A stretch of DNA of 30,562 nt from a bacterium (GTDB taxonomy: Bacteria; CG2-30-53-67; CG2-30-70-394): contig JAJRSX010000050.1 in assembly GCA_024278555.1 (NCBI GenBank), positions 1 through 30,562 of the forward strand, written 5' to 3'. Both the position numbers and the translations under genes were made by a program. Positions 2,210 to 30,352 of this stretch are shown here, piece after piece. Within the stretch, counting starts at the first letter, position 1. Each line of letters starts with the position of its first letter. Below the pieces are notes generated by a model. The model was given only the letters and a program-made list of their open reading frames with translations, was not told where the DNA came from and did not search any database.

Positions 2210-3022
2210 ATGCCCACCCACGCCATTGCCGTCGAGGAGTATCGACCGGAGAGTGAGCCGTATTACCACCCGGTGAGGGACGAGGTCTCCCTGTTCGAGG
2301 CCGCGGCCGCCGGGCGGATTCCGCTGCTCCTCAAGGGGCCCACCGGCTGCGGCAAGACGCGCTTCGTGGAGCACATGGCGTGGCGCCTGAACCGGCCCCT
2401 GGTGACCGTCTCCTGTCACGACGACCTCACCGCCTCCGACCTGGTGGGGCGCTACCTGGTGAAGGGGGGGGAGGTGGTGTGGGTCGATGGGCCGCTGACC
2501 CGGGCGGTGAAGGCGGGGGCGATCTGCTACCTCGATGAGATCGTCGAGGCACGCAAGGACACCACCGTGGTGATCCACCCGCTGGCCGACGACCGCCGCT
2601 ACCTGACCATCGAGAAGACCGGCCAGGTCCACCCGGCCCACCCGGACTTCTGCCTGGTCATCTCTTACAACCCCGGCTACTAGTCGGTCCTCAAGGAGCT
2701 TAAGACCTCCACCCGCCAGCGGTTCATCTCCCTCGCCTTCGACTACCCCGAGGCGCAGGTGGAGGCGGAGGTGGTGGCCCACGAGACCGGCCTCGCCCCG
2801 GAGCGGTGCGGCCAGCTCGTGCGCCTCGCCCGGATGACCCGCAACCTCAAGGAGCAGGGGCTGGAGGAGGGCGCCTCCACCCGCCTGCTGGTCCACTGCG
2901 GCCGCCTGATCACCGCCGGCATCGACCCGCGCCGCGCCTGCGAGACCGCCATCGCCCTCACCCTCACCGACGACCCGGAGATGGTCACCGCGGTGGAGGA
3001 GATGGTGGAGGCGGTGTTTTGA
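2210..3022 (+). pseudogene. cbbQ: cbbQ, MoxR-family AAA+ RuBisCO activase subunit, interrupted by an in-frame TAG
   Basis: CbbQ is the AAA+ ATPase of the CbbQO RuBisCO activase (NorQ is the relative acting on nitric oxide reductase). The N-terminal part has Walker A GPTGCGKT, the CbbQ block [15 protein letters not shown], and Walker B ICYLDEI. The family sequence SYNPGYQS is here SYNPGY-stop-S: codon 158 is TAG (2681-2683) where CAG is expected, a single C-to-T change. The same frame continues without other stops through STRQRFISLAFDYP to the natural C-terminus at 3022, giving a normal full length of about 270 aa. The ATG at 2210 is chosen because family members start close before the [12 protein letters not shown] region; an ATG at 2150 is possible. 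This may be a recent nonsense mutation, a sequence error, or a readthrough site. Confidence 0.88.
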
Positions 3023-3043
3023 GGGGCGCGCTGCGCGCGCCCC
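3023..3043 (+). other. Perfect 9-bp hairpin directly after cbbQ
   Basis: Immediately after the cbbQ stop codon, GGGGCGCGC pairs perfectly with GCGCGCCCC around a TGC loop. It has no T-run, so it is not a standard intrinsic terminator. It contains the 15-nt box (3026-3040) shared with two other intergenic elements, described in the entry for 3026-3190. Confidence 0.6.
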
Positions 3044-3190
3044 GGGGACGGGGGATGAGGGGTGGGGGATGAGGGGCGGGATGGCCGCTTCGCGCCCAGC
3101 CTCTTTGTCGTTGAGTAGCCTTTACTGTCACCACCATCCGGCCCGCAGGGCCGACCGCCCCCTCATCCCCCACCCCTCATCCCCCACCCC
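3026..3190 (+). repeat. Inverted short-word intergenic element W1
   Basis: Order of parts: Box 1 (GCGCGCTGCGCGCGC, 3026-3040); a left arm of four heptads at 3050-3077 (GGGGGAT, GAGGGGT, GGGGGAT, GAGGGGC); a spacer; Box 2 (TCCGGCCCGCAGGGCCGACC, 3137-3156), itself a hairpin; and a right arm at 3158-3190 made of the complementary heptads. The arms could pair over more than 25 bp in DNA or in the cbbQ-cbbO transcript. It fills the whole cbbQ-cbbO spacer; cbbO starts 16 bases later. Boxes 1 and 2 recur in the same order at 9605-9736, where the words between them are different. Confidence 0.8.
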
Positions 3191-3205
3191 GCGCGTAGCC
3201 CCCCC

Positions 3206-5404
3206 ATGCACTGGACCCGCGACAAGCTCGATGACCACCTGAGCCGCCTCCTGGAGCCGGTCCTGTCGTCGCGACGGAGCGCGGCACAGGCGGTAGAGGC
3301 GGTGTGGCGGCTCACCCCGCGGCAGCGGGCCACTGTCCTCAATCTGTTCGAGATCGCCGCGGCCACCAACGAGGAGGTCGCCTTCCAGTTTCTCCTGCGG
3401 GTGGAGGAGGGGCTCGACCGCCTCGGCCTGGAGGGGATCCGGGCGTGGATGATGGAGGCCCTCGACCGGTACGACACCGGCGGCATGTACCCGGCCATCT
3501 CCTACCTGCGGATGGTGGGGGGGATGGAGGTGGCGGCGGAGGGCGAGGTGGCCCTGGCAACCCTGGCCGGCAGGCTGGAGACCTTCATCACCGCCCTTGG
3601 CGGCGAGCGCCACGAGGTGGTCGACGGCGACGGCCCGGCCACCGACGGCGATCGACTCATCTTCCCCGCCCGCCTCCGCCTCTGCACGACCACCGACCAC
3701 AACCTCGCCCTCTACCGGTGGTCGGCCACCCTCCTGTGGGCGCAGCTCGACCGCGCCACCTTCCGGCTGCCTGCCGGCTGGGGCGACGGGGCCGAGGACG
3801 ACCTCGGCCGCCTCGACTGCTTCCTCCGGAGCTTCGACGCCCCCCCCGTCGCCACCTACCTCTACCTGGTCGGTGAGACCGTGCGCCTGGAGGCGGCCCT
3901 GGCCCGTGAGCTCCCCGGGCTGGCGCGCGCCGCCACCGCGGCAAAGGAGGCGCTCCTCGCCACCACCACGGAGAGGCCGATGATGCCACGCGCCTCCCTG
4001 TGCATGGAGCTCACCCGCTGGCTCCTCGGCGGTGACCGGCCCACCGGGGAGGCGGGCGCGGTGGCCGACCTCTTGGCCCCCCTGGCCGCCGAGGGCACCA
4101 CGGTGGCGGCGACCTGCGCCGCGGTGGTCGCGGCCTACCCGATCCTCGCCGACCTGCCGGGCAACGACCTCCCCCCCCTCCCCTACCTCGCCCCCCTGCG
4201 GCCGGCATCGGTCGCGACCGCCCTGCGCGAACGGCGAGAGCAGCAGTTGTCCTGTCTGCGCCTGGCGCTCAGCCGCCTCGTCGAAGAGCAGGAGATCGAC
4301 CCCCACGCCGGGGTGCGCCTGCGCCCATGCACCGACGGCGAGGAGCCGACCCGCTTCGAGATGCTGGCCGACGGCCGGCCGGTAGAGATCCCGGTGGAGG
4401 TCGAGGAGCTCCTGCGCTCGGTGGCCGCCGACCTCGGCGACCTGCCGCCGGAGCTCCTCTCGGCCGGCGGCTGGGCGCCGGGCTACGACGCGGACACCAA
4501 GCCGGAGCGGGACGGTCCGGACGAGGAGCGCGGCGACGGCTACCACTACGACGAGTGGGACCACCGCCGCCACGCCTACCACAAGGGGTGGTGCACGGTG
4601 CGCGAGCTGCAGCCGGCGACCTCGCCCGACCCGGTGGCGGCGCGCATCCTCGCCGAGCACCACGGCATCGTGCGCGCCCTGCGCCACCGCTTCGAGCGGT
4701 TGCGGACCGAGGAGCGCACCCTGCGCCGCCAACGTGACGGTACCGACATCGACCTCGACGCGGTGATCGAGGCGGTGGCCGATAGCTGCGCCGGGATGGA
4801 GCCGGACAACCGCCTCTTCACCCGCCTGCAACGGGACGAGCGCAACATCGCGGTCTGCTTCCTGGTCGACATGAGCGGCTCCACCAAGGGGTGGATCAAC
4901 CGGCTGCAGAAGGAGTCCCTCGTTCTGCTGTGCGAGGCCCTGGAGATCCTCGGCGACCGCTACGCGATCTACGGCTTCTCCGGCATGACCCGCCTCAAGT
5001 GCGACATCTACCCGATCAAGCCGTTCACCGAGCCGTACGGCGAGGAGGTGCGGGCGCGCATCGGCGGCATCGAGCCGAAGGACTATACCCGGATGGGGGC
5101 GGCGATCCGCCACGCCTGTGCCCGCCTCGGCGAGGTGGAGGCACGCACCCGCCTGCTCATCACCCTCTCCGACGGCAAGCCGGACGACTGGGACCACTAC
5201 CGTGGCGCCTACGGCATCGAAGACACCCGCCGGGCCCTGATCGAGGCGAAGCGCGGCGGGGTCCACCCCTTCTGCATCACCATCGACCGCGACGCCGCCG
5301 ACTACATCGCCCACATGGTCGGGCCGGCCAGCTACTGCTACGTGGAGGACGTCCGCACCCTGCCGCGCAAGATCCCCGAGGTCTACCGGCGGCTCACCAC
5401 CTGA
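3206..5404 (+). CDS. cbbO: CbbO-type VWA-domain protein, RuBisCO activase partner
   Basis: The 732-aa product has a long helical N-terminal region and a C-terminal von Willebrand A domain (about residues 545-730), as in CbbO/NorD proteins. The MIDAS metal site is intact: DMSGS (D555, S557, S559), then KDYTRMG and SDGKPDD supplying the later Thr and Asp. CbbO works as an adaptor that links the CbbQ AAA+ ring to RuBisCO and helps remove inhibitory sugar phosphates. The closely related NorD acts on nitric oxide reductase, so the target cannot be proven without a neighbouring RuBisCO or norCB, neither of which is in the window. It lies 183 bp after cbbQ, with a repeat element between them. No clear ribosome-binding site is visible before the ATG. 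Confidence 0.85.
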   Translation: MHWTRDKLDDHLSRLLEPVLSSRRSAAQAVEAVWRLTPRQRATVLNLFEIAAATNEEVAFQFLLRVEEGLDRLGLEGIRAWMMEALDRYDTGGMYPAISYLRMVGGMEVAAEGEVALATLAGRLETFITALGGERHEVVDGDGPATDGDRLIFPARLRLCTTTDHNLALYRWSATLLWAQLDRATFRLPAGWGDGAEDDLGRLDCFLRSFDAPPVATYLYLVGETVRLEAALARELPGLARAATAAKEALLATTTERPMMPRASLCMELTRWLLGGDRPTGEAGAVADLLAPLAAEGTTVAATCAAVVAAYPILADLPGNDLPPLPYLAPLRPASVATALRERREQQLSCLRLALSRLVEEQEIDPHAGVRLRPCTDGEEPTRFEMLADGRPVEIPVEVEELLRSVAADLGDLPPELLSAGGWAPGYDADTKPERDGPDEERGDGYHYDEWDHRRHAYHKGWCTVRELQPATSPDPVAARILAEHHGIVRALRHRFERLRTEERTLRRQRDGTDIDLDAVIEAVADSCAGMEPDNRLFTRLQRDERNIAVCFLVDMSGSTKGWINRLQKESLVLLCEALEILGDRYAIYGFSGMTRLKCDIYPIKPFTEPYGEEVRARIGGIEPKDYTRMGAAIRHACARLGEVEARTRLLITLSDGKPDDWDHYRGAYGIEDTRRALIEAKRGGVHPFCITIDRDAADYIAHMVGPASYCYVEDVRTLPRKIPEVYRRLTT

Positions 5405-8601: not shown

Positions 8602-9597
8602 CTACCAGCGCGCCACCGCCGCCGCCCAGGTGAAGCCGGCGCCGAAGGCGACCATCCCTACCAGGTGGCCCGGCCGGATGCGACCGTCGCCCACCGCCGT
8701 GTCCAGGGCGATGGGGATCGATGCGGCGGTGGTGTTGCCGGTGGTCGCGACGGTGGAGACGACCCGCTCGCGCGGCAGGCCGAGGGCGTCGGCGGTGACG
8801 TCGAGGATGCGCTGGTTCGCCTGGTGCGGCACCACCCAGTCGAGGTCGGCCACCGCCACCCCGGCGCGGTCGCAGGCCGCGCGCAGGGCGGCCGGCATCT
8901 GCACCACCGCCTGCTTGAAGACCAGGCGGCCGTCCATGTGGATCCGGTGGAGCCCCGCCCCCACCTGCTGATCGTCGAGGAAGGGGCGGCGAGCGGTGCC
9001 GGGGACCGGGATGGAGAGGGCGTCCACGAAACCGCCGTCGGCGCCGAGGTGGGTAGCGAGGAGGCCATGGTCGTCGTCCGCGGCCCCCTCCACCACCACC
9101 GCCCCGGCGCCGTCGCCGAACAGGACCGCGGTGTCGCGGCCGGTGTCGGAGAGGTCGAGCCCCGCCGACTGGACCTCGGCGCCGACCACCAAGACCCGCT
9201 CCGCCTCGCCGGCGCGCACGTAGACGTCGGCGAGGGCGAGGGCGTAGAGGAAGCCGGAGCACTGGCCGCGCACGTCGATCGCCCCCACCGGCCGCGTCCC
9301 GAGCTTGTGCTGGAGGAAGCAGGCGGCGCCGGGGACGAGGTAGTCGGCGGTGGAGGTGGCGAAGAGGATGAGGTCGATCGCCCCCGGCGCCAGGTCGGCC
9401 GCCTCCAGGCAGCGGCGGGCGGCCACCAGGCCGAGGTCGGAGGTCGCCTCGCCGTCGGCGGCGAACCGGCGCTCGCGGATCCCGGAGCGCTGGCGGATCC
9501 ACGCATCCGACGTCTCCATCCACCCCTCCATGTCGCGGTTGGTGACCACCCGCTCGGGGAGGTAGCTGCCGGTGGCGACAATGCGGCTACGGGACAT
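8602..9597 (-). CDS. fabH: Beta-ketoacyl-ACP synthase III
   Basis: FabH condenses acetyl-CoA (or another acyl-CoA) with malonyl-ACP to start fatty acid synthesis. The 331-aa protein has the catalytic triad Cys113 (GQCSGF), His258 (VPHQANQR) and Asn288 (GNTTAASIP), plus the glycine-rich FGDGAGAVV motif and the C-terminal FGAGFTWAA. Length and motif spacing are normal. The ATG at 9597 is chosen because the family begins with a short strand (SRIVATGSYLP); upstream codons lie in repeat element W2. It stands apart from a fab cluster, with yhbY upstream on the same strand and the 52-aa membrane protein downstream. Confidence 0.96.
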   Translation of the reverse strand: MSRSRIVATGSYLPERVVTNRDMEGWMETSDAWIRQRSGIRERRFAADGEATSDLGLVAARRCLEAADLAPGAIDLILFATSTADYLVPGAACFLQHKLGTRPVGAIDVRGQCSGFLYALALADVYVRAGEAERVLVVGAEVQSAGLDLSDTGRDTAVLFGDGAGAVVVEGAADDDHGLLATHLGADGGFVDALSIPVPGTARRPFLDDQQVGAGLHRIHMDGRLVFKQAVVQMPAALRAACDRAGVAVADLDWVVPHQANQRILDVTADALGLPRERVVSTVATTGNTTAASIPIALDTAVGDGRIRPGHLVGMVAFGAGFTWAAAVARW

Positions 9598-9604
9598 GGT
9601 TGGG

Positions 9605-9736
9605 GCTCGCTTCGCTCGCGGGGGATAGGGATGTAGGGAGGTAGGGAGGTAGGGACGGATCCTGTGGATAGCGCCAATCGGCACCTTCGTCCAGCCCGGA
9701 GGGCTGACCCTCCCTATTTCCCTATCTCCCTACTTC
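9605..9736 (+). repeat. Inverted short-word intergenic element W2
   Basis: Parts in plus-strand order: Box 1 (GCTCGCTTCGCTCGC, 9605-9619); a left arm of 8-nt words (GTAGGGAG-type, 9624-9656); a spacer; Box 2 (TCCAGCCCGGAGGGCTGACC, 9690-9709); and a right arm of three complementary 8-nt words (9710-9733: CTCCCTAT, TTCCCTAT, CTCCCTAC). It fills the space between yhbY and fabH. The last word contains the yhbY stop codon (TAG read on the minus strand at 9730-9732). Boxes 1 and 2 match those of the element at 3026-3190 in order and orientation, while the arm words differ in sequence and period. Confidence 0.8.
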
Positions 9737-12281: not shown

Positions 12282-14030
12282 TTGAGCGAAGAGCGCCCAG
12301 AGGCGGATGACGGGGTGTGGCCGTGGGGCCGCACCGCGACGGGTAACGCCCCCGGCGCCACCCCGCCCCACGGCCGCTCGGTGACGAGCTTCCGCTGGAA
12401 GTTCTTCGGCTACATCGCCCTGCTCATCCTCTTCATCTGCGTCGTCTTCGGCTTCATCATCCACGCCCAGCAGACCGGCATCCTGCAGCGTGACCTCATC
12501 CGCCGCGGGGAGGTGGTGGCCGGGGCGGTGGCCGAGGTCGTCGCCCTCGCCCCGTCGCCGACCGCAGGGATCGAGGCGGCGGCGCGGGTGGTGGCCGGCG
12601 ACGAGGCGGTGGTCGGGGTGGCGATCTACGACGCCGCCGGCCGCGAGGCGGCGGCGACCCACCGGGACGATGGCCGGGGATGGCTCCCGGGCCGCGCGCC
12701 GCTCCTGCCGCCCTTCAACCTGGAGGGCAACCCGAGCCGCAAGGCGAGCCGCTACCTCCTCGAGCTCACCGACGGCGGCGCGGTGTGGTGCTTCACCCAC
12801 CCGCTCCCCGCCACCCGCGGCGGCGTGGTCGGTTGGGCCGAGGTCCACGTGGTGCCGCCCTACGCCAGCCACCGTCTCGACTACGTGGTACGGGTCGGCC
12901 TCCTCGCCCTCACCGTCTTCCTCAGCTTCGCCCTCTTTGCGGTCCTCTTCCTGTCGCGGCGGGTCACCGGCCCCCTGGTCCAGCTCGCCGACCGGGCGCG
13001 GGAGTGGGGCAAGGGCAACCTCGGCGGCCGGGTGGCGATCCACACCGGCGACGAGTTCGAGCTCCTCGGCAACGCCTTCAACGACATGGCCGCCAACCTC
13101 CGCTCCACCATCGGCCGCCTGCAGGAGAGCGAGCTCAAGCTCAAGGAGCACACGGGAGATCTGGAGCTCAAGGTCCTCGACCGCACCCGCGCCCTGGCGG
13201 AGAAGAACGTCGAGCTCCAGCGGGCCATGGAGCAGGCGCGCGACTCCGACCGGCTGAAGTCGGAGTTCATCTCCAACATGTCGCATGAGCTGCGCACCCC
13301 GCTGAACGGCGTCATCGGCTTCGCCGAGCTCATCCTCATGGGGATCGACGGCGAGGTGGACGGCAAGGTGCGCGAAGACGTGGAGCAGATCCACGAATGC
13401 GGCAACCACCTGCTCCACCTGATCACCTCGATCCTCGACTTCTCCACCATCGAGGCGGGGATGATGACCGTCCACAAGGAGGAGACCGACGTCGTCTCGA
13501 TCCTCGACGAGGTCGCGCCGGTGGCCCGCTCCCTGGCGAGCAAACGGCAAAACGAGTACCGCCAGGAGGTGGGCGACGACATGCCGGAGGTGGTGGTCGA
13601 CCGGATGCGCATCAAGCAGGTGCTCCTCAACCTGGTCTCCAACGCCTGCAAGTTCACCGAGCACGGCAGGGTCACCGTCCGCCTCGACCTCCTGGAACGG
13701 CAGCCGCAGGTGGTCAAGCAGCTCCGCGCCCACTACCCGGCGCCGCTGGACCCACGGGAGTACTTCTACCTCGGCGTCAGCGACACCGGCATCGGCATCC
13801 CGGCGGAGCACCTCGGCAACATCTTCAAACGCTTCAACCAGCTCGACGGCTCAGTGCCGCGCACCTACGGCGGCACCGGCCTCGGGCTGGTGATCAGCCG
13901 CCAGCTCATCGAACTCCACGGCGGCTGGATCTGGGTCACCTCCACCCCCGGCGAGGGCTCCACCTTCCACTGCGTCCTCCCCCGCCGCGCCCGCGAGCTG
14001 GAGGCGGAGGCGTGTGAAAGCGACCGCTGA
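12282..14030 (+). CDS. Membrane sensor histidine kinase
   Basis: The 582-aa protein has two membrane segments (about 42-61 and 203-225) flanking a roughly 140-residue periplasmic sensor region, a HAMP domain (about 226-278), a coiled coil (280-325), a HisKA domain with the phosphoacceptor His335 in SNMSHELRTPLNG, and a HATPase domain with NLVSNACKF, DTGIGI and GGTGLGL boxes. It is a class I orthodox kinase without a receiver. No response regulator is adjacent, so it may signal through an unlinked partner. The start is taken as TTG at 12282 with GGAG upstream; the first 35 residues are low-complexity and the true start could be later. The signal sensed is unknown. Confidence 0.93.
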   Translation: MSEERPEADDGVWPWGRTATGNAPGATPPHGRSVTSFRWKFFGYIALLILFICVVFGFIIHAQQTGILQRDLIRRGEVVAGAVAEVVALAPSPTAGIEAAARVVAGDEAVVGVAIYDAAGREAAATHRDDGRGWLPGRAPLLPPFNLEGNPSRKASRYLLELTDGGAVWCFTHPLPATRGGVVGWAEVHVVPPYASHRLDYVVRVGLLALTVFLSFALFAVLFLSRRVTGPLVQLADRAREWGKGNLGGRVAIHTGDEFELLGNAFNDMAANLRSTIGRLQESELKLKEHTGDLELKVLDRTRALAEKNVELQRAMEQARDSDRLKSEFISNMSHELRTPLNGVIGFAELILMGIDGEVDGKVREDVEQIHECGNHLLHLITSILDFSTIEAGMMTVHKEETDVVSILDEVAPVARSLASKRQNEYRQEVGDDMPEVVVDRMRIKQVLLNLVSNACKFTEHGRVTVRLDLLERQPQVVKQLRAHYPAPLDPREYFYLGVSDTGIGIPAEHLGNIFKRFNQLDGSVPRTYGGTGLGLVISRQLIELHGGWIWVTSTPGEGSTFHCVLPRRARELEAEACESDR

Positions 14031-14033
14031 CGT

Positions 14034-14205
14034 GCGCGCTACGCGCGCCAGCTTTCAGCGGACAGCGTCTCCTTCCAGCAAGTGAACCGGGGGCCGTGGT
14101 GCGACCGCAAGCCCCCCTCTCTCCACCGCCCCCCCCCGGCGCCCCTCCACTGAAAGCTGTCCACTGTTCGCTGCAGGCTGAGCGCTGCAAGCTGAGAGCT
14201 GAAAA
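14034..14205 (+). repeat. Inverted short-word intergenic element W3 (heptads)
   Basis: Box 1 (GCGCGCTACGCGCGC, 14034-14048) comes 3 bases after the kinase stop. The left arm is three heptads with a CAGC core (CAGCTTT, CAGCGGA, CAGCGTC; 14049-14069). The right arm is eight consecutive heptads starting CTG at 14150-14205: CTGAAAG, CTGTCCA, CTGTTCG, CTGCAGG, CTGAGCG, CTGCAAG, CTGAGAG, CTGAAAA. The phase never slips over 56 bases, while three to four positions of each word vary. Box 2 of W1/W2 is not recognisable here. Confidence 0.8.
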
Positions 14206-16335: not shown

Positions 16336-16420
16336 GGTAGGAGGAGGCCATGCCCCCGATCCGCGCCGTTGGCGCGGCAGGCCCAAAGGGCCTGGATCGC
16401 GGGCATGGCCCGCTCCTACC
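16336..16420. repeat. REP-type cruciform element, copy 1
   Basis: Two 27-bp outer arms (16336-16362 and 16394-16420), matching at 24 positions when one is reversed and complemented, enclose two smaller hairpins: GCGCC-GTT-GGCGC (16363-16375) and AGGCCC-AAA-GGGCCT (16379-16393). The outer arms start GGTAGGAG and contain GGCCATGCCC. A sister copy is at 22364-22457. It lies between convergent genes (LipM-like and eboF), the usual place for REP elements. No transposase is nearby. Confidence 0.85.
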
Positions 16421-19056: not shown

Positions 19057-19233
19057 GGGGCGGGGCGACGGGACGGAGGGTCGACCTCGGAGCGTGCCTC
19101 GCCGCCGCCGCCCCCTCAAGCCAACCCATCCCGGGGCCATCCCGGGGTCCACCTTCGGATTATGTCCGAGGAAGCGCCCCGATTCCTGGAGTGTGCACCC
19201 TGTTGGGAACGGGTGGGCCCCCCACTGCAGCAG

Positions 19234-19392
19234 ATTTTGGGGTCAGGTCTTTCATTGCCACATTTCTTGCAGATTTTGGGGTCACATTTCTTGAAGAAAT
19301 GTGGCAATGAAAGACCTGACCCCAAAATTTGTGTGACCCCAAAATTTGTGCAAAATTTGTGTGACCCCAAAATCTGTGACCCCAAAATCTGA
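19234..19392. repeat. GGGGTC/GACCCC palindromic dispersed repeat
   Basis: Two perfect 35-bp inverted arms (19234-19268 and 19294-19328) contain TTTTGGGGTCAGGTCTTTCA and its complement. They are followed by direct repeats of GACCCCAAAATTTGTG and GACCCCAAAATCTG at 19318, 19335, 19363 and 19378. The stretch is much more AT-rich than its surroundings. I recall similar sequences scattered in gammaproteobacterial genomes, sometimes near REP-associated tyrosine transposases; none is present here. Small ORFs across it are not genes. Confidence 0.85.
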
Positions 19393-19401
19393 GAGGCCGC
19401 C

Positions 19402-30057: not shown

Positions 30058-30215
30058 GCCGCAAGAGTCAACCGCCACCTCCTCGACCGACTCGCGCACG
30101 GCGCCACCGCGGACAAGATTACCGAGGAATACGACGGGATGTAAAAACGCTCTCTCATCCCGCTCACCGCCCTTCGACGAGCGCACTGTTGCGCAGGAAC
30201 CCAAGCTCTTTTTTC
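30058..30215. other. Intergenic region after the helicase gene
   Basis: No gene was recognised from 30058 to the window end. A 5-bp hairpin GCGCA-CTGT-TGCGC lies at 30181-30194, just ahead of repeat W4. Short ORFs here overlap the repeats. Confidence 0.4.
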
Positions 30216-30303
30216 ACCATGAAGGACATGAAGAGCATGAAGAGACAAACCGCAGCATGGCAGCCATCCCATAACCCTTCATGTCCTTCATGCTCTTCAT
30301 GGT
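30216..30303. repeat. Inverted short-word intergenic element W4 (permuted 9-nt words)
   Basis: The left arm (30216-30242) reads ACCATGAAG, GACATGAAG, AGCATGAAG. The right arm (30277-30303), read on the minus strand, reads ACCATGAAG, AGCATGAAG, GACATGAAG: the same three words with the last two exchanged. The core CATGAAG is invariant. The spacer is 34 bp. A T-rich stretch precedes the left arm and an A-rich one follows the right arm. Confidence 0.85.
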
Positions 30304-30352
30304 AAGAAAACAGATTTCTTACTTCGCACATCGCCCCTCGACAAGCACACTC

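Follow-up and report, generated by a model that had tools for sequence, protein, structure and literature searches.

The intergenic elements W1 and W2 belong to one class, as the first-pass annotation had proposed, with about 121 copies in this genome and conserved boxes in a fixed order. Both lie in the window, that is, the whole 30,562-nt stretch analysed here, which is contig 19 of a 3.06-Mb draft genome. The Box 1 hairpin at the outer end of the element carries a G/T ambiguity and the ambiguity is informative: the mismatched T-form stands mostly at gene starts and the perfect G-form at gene stops. From the sequence evidence, we give roughly even credence to the element acting between cistrons, in the manner of REP/BIME repeats, to control mRNA ends and the relative expression of the two genes.

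What G-rich heptad arrays and REP-type repeats do between bacterial genes is still debated, and this element fuses both kinds. Its parts differ by whether they face a start or a stop, its arms change jointly and its position outlives its sequence, which offers a testable link between repeat architecture and mRNA ends. It is also a case for how quasi-palindromic repeats stay alike within a species yet differ between sister species at the same gaps.

Architecture and copy number

The architecture was derived from reading about 75 element contexts. In the W1 orientation, the full order is an outer hairpin, G-rich words, the Box 3 hairpin, a linker, the Box 2 hairpin, C-rich words and another outer hairpin. 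This quasi-palindromic layout means that G-rich words come first on whichever strand is read. The two-box frame described earlier thus has real boxes in a fixed order but covers only half of the larger unit, to which Box 3, the linker and usually the far-side outer hairpin are to be added.

The Box 3 hairpin takes form A, GTTGGCCGC-TNC-GCGGCCAGC, or form B, TGCCGGCC-TGC-GGCCGGCG, and the Box 2 hairpin reads CGGCCC-GNA-GGGCCG or CAGCCC-GNA-GGGCTG. Between them lies a linker of 35–40 nt with a consensus near TTTCGTGGGTGGCTTCCATCGTCATCTCA. Among the copies listed, 76 have a GNA loop with a variable middle position in Box 2, and the Box 3 loop is mostly TNC, which is GNA on the opposite strand. 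A GNA triloop with a free middle base is a signature of DNA mini-hairpins. A third hairpin was suspected within the linker, and the consensus fold gave it no support. Several cores (L056, L070, L086, L031 and L214) have a CTTTCTA word array inserted in the linker, just before its conserved TCCATCGTCAT end.

Both boxes of W1 and W2 are present where the first-pass annotation placed them and are far above chance in the genome. Box 2 with up to two mismatches matches 59 times against once for the reversed pattern, although some of the two-mismatch matches are members of another REP family, of the GTAGGAG type. When one mismatch is allowed, Box 1 matches 169 times against 66 for the control, and 69 matches are exact. 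Searched as had been suggested, the stretches around the hits contain 46 cases of a Box 1 with a Box 2 in the next 200 bp and 5 of the reverse order. A lack of further pairs, which would have refuted the first-pass annotation, is thus clearly not what the genome shows. REPs of the GTAGGAG type (GTAGGAGGGGGTTGCACCCCCGATCC...) also occur at 16336–16420 of the window and at L014, L015, L018, L022 and L024; they are Pseudomonas REP-like and numerous genome-wide.

Covariance models built for the core in two forms find 121 distinct cores in this genome when overlaps are merged. W1 (E 2.3e-11) and W2 (E 7.8e-6) are the only convincing members in the window. Both inner stems covary, with double changes in 13 of 14 stem pairs and none of 500 shuffles reaching that, in an alignment of 106 matches that was fitted to the model and so is biased towards structure. 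The fold z-score is −3.5 in 87 element gaps versus −1.1 in 19 other gaps. An Rfam search of the window gave only a tRNA above the gathering score.

The W1 and W2 loci

W1 lies on the forward strand between cbbQ and cbbO. By the gene calls, cbbQ stops with TGA at 3020–3022 and the element begins at the next base. Its outer hairpin, GGGGCGCGC-TGC-GCGCGCCCC at 3023–3043, contains a G-form Box 1 (3026–3040) directly after the stop codon and has an RNA fold of −19.5 kcal/mol. A G-rich array of GGGGGATGAGGGGT units follows at 3044–3079, then a slightly degenerate form-A Box 3 hairpin at 3080–3100, the linker at 3101–3136 as aligned by the covariance model (model window 3080–3158), the Box 2 hairpin CGGCCC-GCA-GGGCCG at 3137–3156 and a C-rich array at 3157–3190. 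The C-rich array is complementary to 3045–3086, and the inverted arms noted at first sight are real: 3045–3086 and 3149–3190 are 86% complementary over 42 nt. A degenerate outer Box 1′ at 3191–3205 ends at the cbbO ATG (3206–3208).

The upstream gene has a feature of its own. An in-frame TAG interrupts cbbQ at 2681–2683 where the congener has CAG (Gln), and the halves are otherwise intact and 89% identical, so the TAG would be a point nonsense mutation, a sequencing error or a case of suppression.

W2 lies upstream of fabH, which is on the reverse strand. The fabH start codon is at 9595–9597, where the FabH profile alignment begins at this Met, and the W2 Box 1 ends 7 nt upstream of it. This start-adjacent outer Box 1 (9605–9619, reverse strand) is a T-form, GCGAGC-GAA-GCGAGC on the fabH strand. 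On the forward strand, a G-rich array of GTAGGGAG units at 9620–9656 is C-rich on the fabH strand. The core at 9649–9711 consists of the linker and Box 2, has lost Box 3 and is opposite in orientation to its genes; its Box 2 hairpin (9690–9709) is the A-T variant CAGCCC-GGA-GGGCTG. The C-rich array at 9710–9736 of the forward strand is G-rich on the gene strand and contains the stop codon of the upstream gene (9730–9732).

W3 and other inverted word families

W3 had been taken for a third variant of the same class that keeps Box 1. It does have a G-form Box 1 (14034–14048) after a stop codon, and it lacks Box 2 and Box 3. The rest of the locus (14021–14205, forward strand) is a copy of a different composite family, and membership in the W1/W2 class was ruled out by its AGCTTTC words (AGCGGAC in other copies) and its separate core. 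Since W3 joins Box 1 to the core and words of another family, Box 1 is a module common to more than one family.

In the second family, a core GGTGGAGAGGGGGGGCTTGCGG... is set between AGCTTTC/AGCGAAC words on one side and long runs of AGCGGAC heptads on the other. At least seven copies were read (the one in the window and those at L303, L307, L309, L310, L311 and L232 among them), and the word pair marks about 21 places. Yet another inverted word family is at 30203–30316, where inverted arrays of ATGAAGGAC/ATGAAGAGC words form 40-nt arms that are 80% complementary. At 19231–19393, an inverted repeat CAGATTTTGGGGTCAGGTCTTTCATTGCCACATTTC with a tandem GACCCCAAAATTTGTG unit matches the GGGGTCAGG-type ends of the genome's Y1_Tnp (RAYT-like) genes.

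Gene-gap placement and the two forms of Box 1

The position between co-directional genes, claimed from three loci, holds for nearly all of the W1/W2 class. Among 107 cores scored between two called genes, 98 are in co-directional, 6 in convergent and 3 in divergent gaps, and no copy is intragenic. Element-free gaps of the same stretches split 33:16 into co-directional and other (p 3e-4 against element gaps), a background that is small and non-random because the analysis covered the stretches around the hits. With a median length of 214 bp, an element gap is mostly taken up by the element itself.

Gene ends were called with a simple home-made gene finder, on which both the Box 1 and the stability results depend: the T-form of Box 1 (GCGAGC-GNA-GCGAGC, read towards the gene) lies within 12 nt of 44 starts and 5 stops, and the G-form (GCGCGC-GNA-GCGCGC) of 0 starts and 7 stops (T versus G, Fisher p 3e-6). 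A core is within 230 nt of 32 of the 44 start-adjacent copies. The exact T-form GCGAGCGNAGCGAGC is found 1–8 nt before an ATG 29 times in this genome and never in the reversed control; outside this genome, the congener has no such case and the other 143 genomes searched have a single one.

Energetically, the two forms are far apart as RNA: the start form folds weakly, at −2.9 kcal/mol, and the stop form strongly, at −12.9 kcal/mol for a 17-mer. Across 95 gaps, the first 35 nt downstream of the stop fold more stably than the last 35 nt upstream of the start (−10.8 versus −5.0 kcal/mol, p 7e-11). The core is also oriented, opposite to its co-directional genes in 74 cases and with them in 24 (p 4e-7).

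The Box 1 form, the hairpin strength and the core orientation all follow gene direction, hence a transcript-level role is the best-supported reading. In the mechanism that we propose, the gap would be transcribed together with its flanking co-directional genes. Pairing of the G-arm with the C-arm would shape the transcript into a rod tipped by the two hairpins, or alternatively the G-arm may fold into a G-quadruplex. A strong hairpin would stand after the stop codon and a weak one before the start codon, and the exposed linker would be a site of transcript cleavage or termination. A hairpin would then protect the 3′ end left on the upstream mRNA, and the start codon of the downstream gene would remain accessible.

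A more specific reading is a two-letter punctuation of gene ends. The mismatched GCGAGC-GNA-GCGAGC would mark starts and the perfect GCGCGC-GNA-GCGCGC stops, and a self-complementary module between them, able to invert, would fold the mRNA between the cistrons. Terminating ribosomes would be passed to the next start, or the mRNAs separated, largely independently of Shine-Dalgarno sequences. We consider this elaboration improbable. Counting against the mRNA-end reading as a whole, no difference in Shine-Dalgarno frequency is seen between element gaps and the others (21/95 versus 8/26).

Orthologous gaps in a congener and possible selfish spread

One other genome of the genus (2.6 Mb) gives 33–38 covariance-model matches at E ≤1, with about 25–35 counted as cores. 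Genomes from other taxonomic families of the organism's class gave covariance-model E values of 0.03 or worse, with no convincing match in the other genomes searched. Of 60 genomes, 58 contain no Box 2. That the form-A core might be spread more widely among taxa was considered and rejected, as the pattern matched only 11 scattered stretches in named genomes, a set that may lack the records of this organism, and the alphaproteobacterial ones (Rhodobacterales, Reyranella and Rhodoblastus) resemble REP dimers. By these searches, the family is restricted to the genus.

Orthologous gaps were compared in about 480 kb of the congener, where the flanking genes are about 73–92% identical. The 17 usable gaps, sorted partly by eye, comprise about 6 with a clear core in both species, about 4 more with remnants and at least 6 without an element. 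In the gap orthologous to W1, the element is kept and both arms are of the GATAGGG/TAGGGAG class, and, Box 1 being absent, they abut the stop and start codons directly. Two of the six clear same-gap pairs, W1 and C69:2509, have the core in flipped orientation.

Orthologous cores (similarity 0.53–0.64) are no more similar than paralogues (0.53–0.70), and the consensus is species-specific. Thus the site and the architecture outlast the sequence, which is homogenised within each species. As the orthologous cores are no closer and at least 6 of the 17 gaps are empty, no single copy looks essential, which counts against the mRNA-end reading.

In the main rival reading, the element is a selfish, non-autonomous, REPIN- or MITE-like mobile repeat. 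Its core would be mobilised as single-stranded DNA, and the bias in gene direction would come from the purging of insertions that damage starts. About 120 dispersed copies, the species-specific consensus and orthologues no closer than paralogues all suit such a repeat, as do the gaps filled in one species and empty in the other. The inverted hairpin pair with a spacer is as in REPINs (PMC3116915), GNA triloops stand on opposite strands at the two core ends, and the genome has four RAYT-type Y1_Tnp genes.

Several observations go against it. The four Y1_Tnp genes carry their own terminal repeats, of the GGGGTCAGG type or similar, with no copy of the element in the flanking stretches read. These repeats are unrelated to the element, and a strict RAYT-mobilised REPIN was rejected on this ground. 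No GTAG flank occurs in cores A1–A3, nor does the element carry a CGTC tag, and the orthologous gaps examined contain neither a clean empty site nor a target duplication. Moreover, six clear shared gaps among 17 exceed independent insertion, for which well under one is expected at about 2–3% gap occupancy (30–40 copies in 2.6 Mb), and two sequence-coded forms of Box 1 are not obviously predicted by pruning alone.

We hold selfish spread of the core to be less probable than control of mRNA ends as an account of what the element does; it may also explain the origin of the family. Under the mRNA-end reading, turnover at the DNA level, through gene conversion or past transposition, probably spread the copies and keeps them alike within the species, and the inverted arms would permit core flipping.

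Word arms, G-quadruplex motifs and possible termination

The arms are built from words of the GGGGATG, GGGGGTGA and TAGGGAG types. Different word families were claimed for the two elements and are found, W1 having the GATGGGG type and W2 the TAGGGAG type. They are G-rich inverted words as described, but the array units vary and are not strict heptads or octads.

The word class (GATGG or TAGGG) agrees between the left and right arms in 61 elements and disagrees in 12 (Fisher p 1e-5). An arm matches its own partner better than permuted ones (z 6.6), and within a word class the matching is not significant (z 1.8 and 1.1). The idea of a swapped cassette is supported in part. Different word classes do sit on the same core, and both arms of the W1 gap have changed jointly in the congener, but the arms are class-concordant and "interchangeable" is too strong.

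The second rival reading is a DNA-level structure (G-quadruplex, cruciform, or a topoisomerase or nucleoid-protein site) whose role would be to relax supercoils between co-directional genes, with no part played by the transcript. Of 87 element gaps, 65 have G3+N1–7 motifs in the start half on the antisense strand and 42 have them in the stop half on the sense strand, with few elsewhere. The core hairpins are of the d(GNA) kind and the wobble pairs show no strand preference; neither the wobble counts (33 G-U versus 22 A-C) nor the covariation distinguishes RNA from single-stranded DNA. Comparable heptads form G-quadruplexes in vitro by circular dichroism (PMC4692102). However, the quadruplex polarity is already implied by the quasi-palindrome itself and so lends no independent support, and three features run with gene direction, namely the separate start and stop forms of Box 1, the asymmetry in stability and the biased orientation of the core. 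We think a purely DNA-level role unlikely.

Less likely still is an ordinary intrinsic terminator that separates transcription units and acts in one or both directions, and this reading was rejected: the GC hairpins between genes are strong and their co-directional and convergent placement would fit, but they have no U-tract, neither W1 nor W2 has a terminator-like site and, for the two strands, T4 stands just outside the core in 1/113 and 0/113 elements. The C-rich arm may still act in Rho-dependent termination.

Relation to known systems

For the arms, the closest precedent is the G-quadruplex heptads GGGNATC of Xanthomonas and Nostoc. In that study (Rehm et al. 2015, PMC4692102), the xanthomonad heptads are often in inverted pairs (70–75) and lie between aligned ORFs, G-rich on the coding strand after stops and on the non-coding strand before starts. 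Related species keep them in the same gaps with changed array length, and Xanthomonas transcripts start or stop at them more often than at control repeats.

The arms of our element are likewise G-rich, inverted, G-quadruplex-capable and between aligned ORFs, with the same stop/start polarity. Their words are not GGGNATC but of the GATGGGG and TAGGGAG types with varying unit length. Unlike the heptads as described there, they also flank a conserved core of two hairpins, and the outer ends usually bear hairpins specific to a start or a stop.

For the core, REPINs are inverted REP doublets (Bertels and Rainey 2011, PMC3116915). The element shares with them two inverted short palindromes and a spacer, many dispersed extragenic copies and a hairpin predicted in single-stranded DNA or mRNA. 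It differs by having no GTAG tag and no linked RAYT, and by the word-array arms outside the doublet and the outer hairpins.

The published CGTC REPs of alphaproteobacteria have 8–9-bp stems, 4–5-nt loops, a CGTC tag with TGTC/CCTC variants and a CCA-like tail (PMC3733652). The inverted GC hairpins and similar stems are common to both, and the alphaproteobacterial pattern matches end in GTCTCGAAG. Box 2 in contrast has a 6-bp stem, a GNA triloop and no CGTC tag, with (C/T)GTCC after the stem in many copies.

The TAACTGA direct repeats of Beggiatoaceae stand a few nucleotides upstream of starts where Shine-Dalgarno sequences are rare (PMC4679880). The start-adjacent Box 1 is similarly placed before start codons, but it is a hairpin at the end of a palindromic unit whereas TAACTGA is an unstructured direct heptamer. 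As to MITEs, the outer hairpins and arms are inverted but variable in sequence.

The first-pass annotation knew of no named family with this design. This stands for the composite but not for the arms, for which the Xanthomonas heptads are a close published precedent (PMC4692102).
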